Source: an uncultured Pelagibacteraceae bacterium (GTDB lineage: Bacteria > Pseudomonadota > Alphaproteobacteria > Pelagibacterales > Pelagibacteraceae). Taken from it: 64,000 nt of DNA. The DNA lies in the NCBI GenBank assembly GCA_902573295.1, contig CACGJB010000001.1, positions 1 through 64,000 of the forward strand. The letters are read 5' to 3'. Each line of letters opens with the position of its first letter. Positions within the stretch are counted from its first letter, which is position 1. A program made the position numbers and the translations under genes. Shown one piece after another: positions 48,392 through 48,975 of the stretch. The notes beneath the pieces are model-generated. The model saw only the letters and a program-made list of their open reading frames with translations. It was not told the origin of the DNA and ran no database searches.

Positions 48392-48419
48392 CTTGAAAAA
48401 ATCAAATTAATTACCATAT
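48392..48419 (+). promoter_or_regulatory. RpoH (sigma-32)-like promoter of hsp20
   Basis: CTTG at 48392-48395, 17-nt spacer, then ACCATAT at 48413-48419. The same CTTG-N17 geometry and -10 placement occur upstream of groES (31487-31514), where the -10 is TCTATAT. The two sites match CTTG-N17-nCnATAT. Expected start is about 48425, giving a 57-nt leader that contains the two hairpins described next. Confidence 0.7.
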
Positions 48420-48426
48420 AAGCTTA

Positions 48427-48475
48427 GTAAGTCGCCTAATGGGGCTTACATAAATAAACTTGCTTAACAAAGGAG
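48427..48475 (+). promoter_or_regulatory. ROSE-like RNA thermometer in the hsp20 leader (predicted)
   Basis: Two hairpins. The first spans 48427-48449: GTAAG (48427-48431) pairs with CTTAC (48445-48449), with further C-G pairs inside. The second pairs CTTGCTT (48459-48465) with AAGGAG (48470-48475) around an AACA loop, which covers most of the Shine-Dalgarno sequence. Pairs are C-G, U-A, U-G, a G facing no partner, C-G, U-A and U-A. A bulged G inside a U(U/C)GCU strand facing the SD is the hallmark of ROSE thermometers on small heat-shock genes. Pairing is read by eye, not by a folding program. Confidence 0.6.
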
Positions 48476-48481
48476 GATATT

Positions 48482-48928
48482 ATGACAAGTAAGGATCTAT
48501 CTATATTTAACTCACTTAGACCTTTTTCAATTGGTTTTGATGATATGTTTGACCAATTTGAAAATATGCTAGGTAATGGAAATTTGACAATGCAGTCAAA
48601 TTACCCACCATATAACATCCGAAAGACTGGTAAGGATAATTATGCTATCGAAGTAGCGTTAGCCGGTTTTAGTAAAAAAGATGTTGAGGTTGAGTTCGAA
48701 GACAATTTATTAACTGTTAGAACTAAACAAGTTGCTAAATCTGAGGACAGTGATTTTAATGGAGAAATTATTCATAAAGGAATTTCTCAAAGACAGTTTG
48801 CAAGATCATTCACTATAGCTGATGATGTAAAGGTTAATGGTGCTGAACTTAAGGACGGTCTTTTAACAATATCTTGTGAAAGAATAATTCCAGAACATAA
48901 AAAAAAGAAGCTTATTGAAATTAAATAA
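48482..48928 (+). CDS. Small heat-shock protein Hsp20 (IbpA-like)
   Basis: ATP-independent holdase that binds unfolding proteins. The 148-residue protein has the IbpA-type N-terminal LRPFSIGFDDMFDQFENMLG, the alpha-crystallin domain (YNIRKTGKDNYAIEVALAGFSKKDVEVEF, in two strands) and the KHKKKKLIEI-like tail with an IxI-like motif (LIEIK). GISQRQFARSFTIADDVKV is typical of the IbpA branch. It is preceded by AGGAGG 6 nt before ATG, an RpoH-type promoter and a ROSE-like leader, and followed by a strong hairpin. Confidence 0.95.
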   Translation: MTSKDLSIFNSLRPFSIGFDDMFDQFENMLGNGNLTMQSNYPPYNIRKTGKDNYAIEVALAGFSKKDVEVEFEDNLLTVRTKQVAKSEDSDFNGEIIHKGISQRQFARSFTIADDVKVNGAELKDGLLTISCERIIPEHKKKKLIEIK

Positions 48929-48941
48929 GTATTAAACCTTG

Positions 48942-48965
48942 CTTGTGGGGATTTCTCCCCACAAG
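48942..48965 (+). terminator. Hairpin terminator between hsp20 and NCS2 permease
   Basis: Perfect 9-bp stem CTTGTGGGG (48942-48950) / CCCCACAAG (48957-48965) with a 6-nt loop. It lies 13 nt after the hsp20 stop and 10 nt before the 3' end of the convergent permease gene. The downstream T-run (TTTAAATTTATTATTTTTTT) is broken by A, so it may also serve as a bidirectional terminator. Confidence 0.75.
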
Positions 48966-48975
48966 TTTAAATTTA

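Follow-up and report, generated by a model that had tools for sequence, protein, structure and literature searches.

The ibpA thermometer of E. coli is of the ROSE type. Its anti-Shine–Dalgarno strand, UCGCU, precedes a small heat-shock protein (sHsp) gene whose product carries Arg at position 93, and all three features have counterparts in the SAR11 locus described here. SAR11 bacteria rank with the most abundant in the sea, and they have few regulators. Pairing between the two untranslated ends of one message is known from the staphylococcal icaR mRNA, in which a 3′ UTR strand is complementary to the translation-initiation region of its own mRNA. The SAR11 mRNA has such a strand as well; it differs from icaR in that the strand targets early codons, is combined with a ROSE-type leader and overlaps a terminator-like stem.

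Short ROSE-like thermometers have been described for Pseudomonas ibpA (PMC3669281). In the available part of that paper, which also names E. coli ibpA as a thermometer, these elements share with the SAR11 leader a length of about 60 nt, two hairpins only, an sHsp gene downstream, U(U/C)GCU facing the Shine–Dalgarno (SD) sequence in hairpin II, an AUG outside the hairpin and a sigma-32 promoter. The SAR11 helices are AU-rich by comparison, and the SAR11 mRNA adds a fit to codons 2–5 and a 3′ UTR strand directed against the gene start, neither of which is mentioned in that part of the paper. The Rfam family ROSE_3 (RF02523) has in common with the SAR11 leader a hairpin 1 with a bulged G in UGCC opposite GGG, U(U/C)GCU in hairpin 2 and a start codon just behind. 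For E. coli IbpA, translational autorepression has been reported, with R93 essential and K98 also needed, in the part of PMC10474464 available to us. Among the literature matches listed (titles and abstract starts, mostly from open-access journals), a ROSE element in SAR11 or phages is unreported, and the main text of PMC2704228 contains no occurrence of heat or hsp.

Promoter and leader of the SAR11 hsp20 gene

The window analysed here is a stretch of 64,000 nucleotides from an uncultured Pelagibacteraceae bacterium. On its forward strand, which carries all features given below, it encodes an Hsp20/IbpA-type small heat-shock protein of 148 residues (48482–48928, ATG at 48482; PF00011, E = 1e-16). 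The top NCBIfam matches of the protein are IbpA and IbpB, both below the cut-off, and the close relatives of the gene are recorded as Pelagibacteraceae, i.e., SAR11.

The gene is preceded by a −35 box CTTGAAA (48392–48398) and a −10 box CCATAT (48414–48419), with 15 nt between TTGAAA and CCATAT. By the sigma-32 consensus, we take these boxes to be of the RpoH (sigma-32) type. The first-pass annotation had placed an RpoH promoter on hsp20; the CTTGAA- and CCATAT-type boxes and their near-fixed spacing bear this out, with dependence on the sigma factor being predicted. In the 112 SAR11 leaders compared below, TTGAA is present in 106, the −10 box matches at five or six of six positions in 109 (best of gaps of 12–18 nt, counted without a shuffled control), and of 111 scorable leaders, 102 have a gap of 15 nt. 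The pattern CTTGAAN{14,16}CCATAT occurs once in the window versus 0.07 expected, and a looser promoter pattern 14 times versus 11.89 expected. Transcription would start a few nucleotides past the end of the −10 box (48419) and hence upstream of 48460.

The leader can form two hairpins. Hairpin 1 (48427–48449) reads GUAAGUC[G]CC-UAAU-GGGGCUUAC and contains the unpaired G48434. In hairpin 2, the anti-SD strand CUUGCUU (48459–48465, with U(U/C)GCU at 48460–48464) faces the SD sequence AAGGAG (48470–48475), leaving G48462 bulged; the earlier description of two hairpins, the proximal one at 48459–48475, proved exact. The element therefore has the marks of the ROSE-like class: it belongs to the 5′ UTR of an sHsp gene, holds U(U/C)GCU against the SD in its 3′-proximal hairpin, and has two of the two to four hairpins typical of the class, with a stable one (hairpin 1) upstream. 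Both hairpins share a bulged G in U(U/C)GC(C/U) facing GG(G/A), which gives hairpin 1 the look of a second ROSE core.

Conservation across SAR11

A total of 179 loci came from 80 contigs and from 147 genomes drawn from the family. An sHsp match was present in 96 of these genomes and absent in the other 51, including 7 of 53 of good quality. Locus L177, whose leader was not captured, and the divergent paralogues L178 and L179, whose leaders lack U(U/C)GCU by eye, were omitted before alignment. The 160 distinct 65-nt leaders were thinned to 112 for counting; they are related by descent, and the counts are not independent events.

CU(U/C)GCU is invariant in all 112 leaders. Loss of the UUGCU strand in related leaders had been named as an observation that would speak against the thermometer; the strand is kept as UUGCU or UCGCU throughout. 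All five core pairs of hairpin 2 are retained in 110 leaders and four of five in the other 2. Its end pairs replace each other, since 66 leaders have the top pair only, 40 the outer pair only, 6 both and none neither. Mapped on the tree of the coding sequences (n = 148), the bases flanking CUUGCU are A..U in 96, C..A in 51 and T..U in 1, with 6 changes counted at each position. The main helix of hairpin 1 is 97.8% paired. The structure named above pairs in 92.6% of cells, compared with 44–65% in slid versions, and the unpaired G is invariant in hairpin 2 and at least 90% conserved in hairpin 1. The covariation called for in the first-pass annotation was found for one hairpin of the two: 7 of 9 pairs of hairpin 1 changed on both sides according to RNAalifold, while the interior of hairpin 2 hardly varies, shows weak covariation and is absent from the RNAalifold consensus of the SAR11 leaders.

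The evidence that the element exceeds chance comes from this conservation, because the motif alone hardly does so. TTGCTN{2,12}AGGAG occurs three times in the window versus 1.08 expected, a count reached by 7 of 100 shuffles, and TTGCTN{2,14}AGGAG occurs 42 times in the genome versus 6 for the pattern read backward. Motif counts, near chance in the window though above the backward control genome-wide, were set aside as evidence.

Covariance models

Rfam ROSE_3 matched the leader over its full length (48426–48487) with 22.7 bits (E = 0.019), against a gathering threshold of 43 bits. This match alone proves nothing, because an unrelated family reached a better E-value (0.0059) in the same scan. 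The suggested Rfam check was thus borne out in extent and not in score. The leader stands 20 bits under the gathering score of RF02523, covers 62 versus 69 positions and has some non-standard consensus pairs. ROSE_3 or ROSE_2 matched 4 of 20 further SAR11 leaders, all below threshold, and 43 bits were reached at none of the loci scanned, with best scores elsewhere of 23.3, 28.6, 32.8, and 24.9 bits. Across 115 genomes of the class, ROSE_3 gave one match at E ≤ 0.001, located before clpB, and none above the cut-off. As judged from sequence, the element is of the ROSE type by anatomy and conservation and lies outside ROSE_3 as curated.

Another covariance model, R1, was built from SAR11 leaders alone. 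In its own genome, the hsp20 leader scored 84.9 bits; the single further match reached 19.7 bits (E = 0.14), and a second ROSE site in this genome was rejected at these values. Within the order, R1 matched 134 of 197 genomes and gave three additional matches of 24.5–25.2 bits. It found no match in the E. coli ibpA leader, whose SD is more deeply paired by computed fold (0.00–0.18 unpaired), nor in the listed sister-family genomes, though hsp20 is present there.

Folding and a second partner in the coding sequence

The temperature series proposed by the first-pass annotation did not return hairpin 2: when 48424–48502 was folded at 5–42 °C, its mean probability was just 0.03–0.05, because the anti-SD strand pairs with codons 2–5 instead. 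Hairpin 1 was 0.97–0.99 paired over the same range. The competing segment, CAAGUAAGG (48486–48494), offers AAGUAAG (48487–48493) as a second anti-SD partner and also faces the 3′ UTR strand described below. The anti-SD strand fits AAGUAAG of codons 2–4, or AGUAAGG where the leader has CCUUGCU. Of the 89 leaders in the MTS/MTG clade, 88 have this fit over 7 bp; in the other 23 leaders it spans 3–6 bp. One of the 65 open reading frames in the window has a 7-bp fit, by its own count hsp20 itself, and five reach 6 bp. Codons 2–4 (ACA AGU AAG) show zero synonymous change in 148 distinct coding sequences and are the sole sites of this kind among 108, the median being 13 changes. Lysine 4 is encoded by AAG in 145 of 145 cases; AAG makes up 649 of the 2293 lysine codons in these genes, the 145 included.

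The balance between the two partners depended on the length of coding sequence included. With 0–3 nt, ViennaRNA paired the SD with a probability above 0.5 in 108–111 of the 112 leaders. With 18 nt, this held for 9–13, and the anti-SD strand preferred the codons in 86–92. The SD was favoured again with 30–36 nt in 65–80 leaders and with 40 nt in 61–81 of the 112; with 60–100 nt, SD and codon pairing were about equal across leaders. When 30, 60, or 100 nt were included for the window leader, warming from 5 to 45 °C lowered the anti-SD to SD pairing from 0.93–0.94 to 0.28–0.51 and raised the pairing with the codons from 0.03–0.06 to 0.24–0.55. The shift was small with 45 or 150 nt (codon pairing up to 0.17 and 0.15), and codon pairing won at all temperatures with 18 or 24 nt. 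Among 96 synonymous variants of codons 2–5, the native sequence ranked 7 and 9 for codon pairing in the window leader and 14 to 36 in three other leaders. Clean melting was absent in silico from the 112 leaders at several coding-sequence lengths and from 12 full-length mRNAs. The E. coli ibpA control gave no clean melting either; since a known thermometer fails the same computation, the computed melting is uninformative.

Complementarity between the 3′ UTR and the gene start

Directly behind the hsp20 stop codon lies the sequence CCUU(A/G)CUUG. The corresponding strand in the window, CCUUGCUUG (48937–48945), is complementary to the beginning of the coding sequence, and its last 5 nt form the foot of a terminator-like hairpin (48941–48966) seen in the fold of the 3′ end. 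CCTT(A/G)CTT is present in 81 of 83 distinct 3′ ends, and a longer form of the strand, CTTRCTTGYGGRG, occurs once in the genome. In all 109 loci providing these 83 ends, the 32 nt past the stop codon pair with codons 2–7 over 8–11 bp; of 1199 control stretches, 17 reach 8 bp and none 9. Fourteen more loci of the main clade have 9–10 bp between 3′ UTR and start. The duplex energy of the window hsp20 is the lowest of the 65 open reading frames, save one internal ATG of a longer frame.

Clades whose proteins start with MSNAL, MKEL, or similar have a different 3′ UTR that fits their own start. Of 23 orthologues from these clades, 21 reach 8 bp or more; the shortfalls are L160 (7 bp) and L169 (6 bp). 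One of 223 control stretches reaches the median score of these clades. In L171 and L173, a double change keeps the two strands matched: CUUUCUAU occurs together with AUAGAAAG or AUGGAAAG. The paralogues L176 and L178 have weak 8-bp matches only. Mean helix scores were 21.8 and 21.2 for own pairs versus 12.7 and 13.8 for swaps between clades, and the duplex energies of swapped pairs were moderately weaker (mean −14.4 versus −18.4 and −16.8). The swap is an imperfect control, since CUAUCUAUA is also found in main-clade starts. Against shuffled 3′ UTRs, z was below −2 for 26 of the 45 pairs tested. Of 12 sister-family loci, 6 have a common 8-bp match in a different position, another reaches 9 bp and the remaining five reach 5–6 bp. 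E. coli ibpA has 6 bp between 3′ UTR and gene start, and among eight phages, L432 has 8 bp, L433 and L444 have 7, and the rest 4–6.

Relatives in phages and other Alphaproteobacteria

R1 was also applied to viral sequences. Eighty viral contigs, among the matches listed, had been fetched with a pattern containing the motif, so only hairpin 1 and the gene context of these loci count as evidence. R1 matched 56 places at E < 0.01 and 63 at E ≤ 1. A downstream open reading frame was available for 52 of the 56, encoding an sHsp in 49 (blastp) and, by eye, a DnaK-like protein in 2 and a rubredoxin-like protein in 1. The DnaK-like genes behind ROSE-type leaders are those of L325 and L327 (viral contigs L311–L390). 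In addition, 22 named phage or virus records with hsp20 (L431–L452) were hand-picked for diversity out of 505–507 records listed. R1 matched the hsp20 leader in 20 of them at E ≤ 0.001, L451 gave E = 0.02, and L443 had no match. The records sampled include Synechococcus, Prochlorococcus, and Pelagibacter phages. Of the 10 viral and 14 phage loci scanned with Rfam, one each (L354 and L441) showed ROSE traces, both below threshold. In an alignment of 69 phage, viral-contig, and alphaproteobacterial leaders, hairpin 1 shows double changes at 9 of 9 pairs, and 95.5% of cells pair versus at most 60.4% in slid versions; these pair counts lean to the model, because the alignment was fitted to it. A further MAFFT alignment, covering 47 of these leaders, is unfitted; the pair figures come from the fitted one.

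Outside the family, R1 gave 13 matches in 12 genomes (E ≤ 0.01; 240 genomes of the class scanned), where very roughly 2.4 chance matches would be expected. Seven lie before hsp20, two before rpoH, one before dnaK, and three before other genes; L221, L222, and L225 have no recognised heat-shock gene downstream and were rejected. R1 was present in one of four genomes of the order to which G492 belongs, and the rpoH case of G492 is therefore not shown to be conserved. The ROSE-like leaders before rpoH (two genomes) or dnaK (one) are L216:1501–1560, L217:1501–1569, and L224:1501–1570, and the sub-threshold ROSE_3 match before clpB lies at L180:1501–1570. In the sister family of the order, inspection by eye placed UCGCU within a compact SD hairpin in all 12 hsp20 leaders examined. 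This hairpin reads AAUC[G]CU-UAAGG-AGGAUU (L286–L297, by eye) and apparently has two further hairpins upstream.

The rpoH leaders of SAR11 were considered as additional ROSE sites and rejected: no SD-like leader was seen by eye in the 27 of 29 loci that were readable (all except L273 and L277). In this set (L256–L284), rpoH seemingly lacks an SD, and promoter-like boxes appear to sit directly next to the start codon. The arrangement suggests a leaderless rpoH mRNA, perhaps autoregulated.

Proposed mechanism and alternative explanations

With the above results in hand, the hsp20 leader is very probably a ROSE-type switch of translation, short and with two hairpins, that is transcribed from an RpoH-type promoter. 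The first-pass annotation had read it as a ROSE-like thermometer, and leader conservation supports this reading; the thermal action would follow from the likeness to known ROSE elements. In such a switch, heat would raise hsp20 mRNA through RpoH. Hairpin 2 would hide the ribosome-binding site at normal sea temperature; it would be opened by heat or by the loss of a bound protein, releasing translation of the mRNA stock. The codon 2–5 partner, in the main SAR11 clade, and the 3′ UTR partner could tune or lock the same switch. These two partners, by which the element differs from known ROSE kinds, and the viral relatives are additional to the earlier reading. They lead to a wider proposal, in which the whole hsp20 message acts as a thermoswitch: the anti-SD strand would pair with the SD or with codons 2–5, a 3′ UTR strand would reach the start about 450 nt away and would have re-evolved in step between clades, and the ROSE core would belong to a lineage common to streamlined Alphaproteobacteria and marine phages, where it precedes phage hsp20 and dnaK-like genes. 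We put this proposal forward tentatively, stopping a little short of an even chance. A family-wide RNA heat switch would offer a direct handle on how SAR11 meets warming, phages carrying the element on hsp20 would time chaperone supply through RNA, and a partnership of coding sequence and 3′ UTR would extend RNA thermometers by a long-range layer.

The leader may instead serve mainly as an operator for the sHsp, a reading that we regard as less likely than not. Hsp20 oligomers would block translation by binding the two bulged-G hairpins until the protein is sequestered by aggregates, so that temperature would act via protein aggregation and not RNA melting. Binding of Hsp20 to the leader hairpins, in the manner of E. 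coli IbpA, would fit the conserved unpaired G of both hairpins, and the proteins agree in part: the R93 equivalent is Arg in 176 of 177 aligned proteins of the SAR11 set (the exception, L179, has a motif-less leader), in 21 of 22 named phage proteins (in the exception, L451, the leader scores lowest) and in 48 of 48 of the viral set, and the aromatic residue at position 34 is kept (Tyr in 176, Phe in 1 of 177). Arg at this place may, however, be common among sHsps in general. Position 98, Lys in E. coli, is Ser or Thr in 175 of 177 and speaks against an operator, as do L178 and L443, which retain R93 without a recognised leader; position 97 is Arg or Lys in 177 of 177, and the pair of positive residues at 97 and 98 is thus not kept. 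The operator and the melting switch are compatible, because both retain the SD pairing. A translation-initiation leader conserved for reasons other than temperature, with CUUGCU and hairpin 1 serving mRNA stability or constitutive control, would agree with folding programs giving no clean melting. We consider it improbable, given that E. coli ibpA fails the same computation, that the RpoH-like promoter is conserved, and that the same architecture stands before hsp20, rpoH, and dnaK elsewhere in Alphaproteobacteria and before phage hsp20 and dnaK-like genes.

The long-range partner has an alternative of its own. The 3′ UTR match could be a by-product of terminator-stem conservation and shared ancestry and not a functional pairing. 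Five of the strand's nine nucleotides lie in the terminator-like stem, the independent clade-level states of 3′ UTR and start are only a few, and the folding of full-length mRNA is heterogeneous. The swapped-clade energies, not much weaker than the native ones, the limited share of z-scores below −2, and the short or displaced matches in the sister family and E. coli ibpA point the same way. Against a by-product speak the match of at least 8 bp at every one of the 109 loci against so few controls, the changed 3′ UTR where the start differs, including the double change of L171 and L173, and the energy of the window hsp20, the lowest but for one internal ATG. We judge the by-product explanation unlikely.

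A minor observation concerns the proteins themselves: the sHsps without the R93 equivalent in the two aligned sets (L179 and L451) also belong to loci with no ROSE leader or the weakest one.
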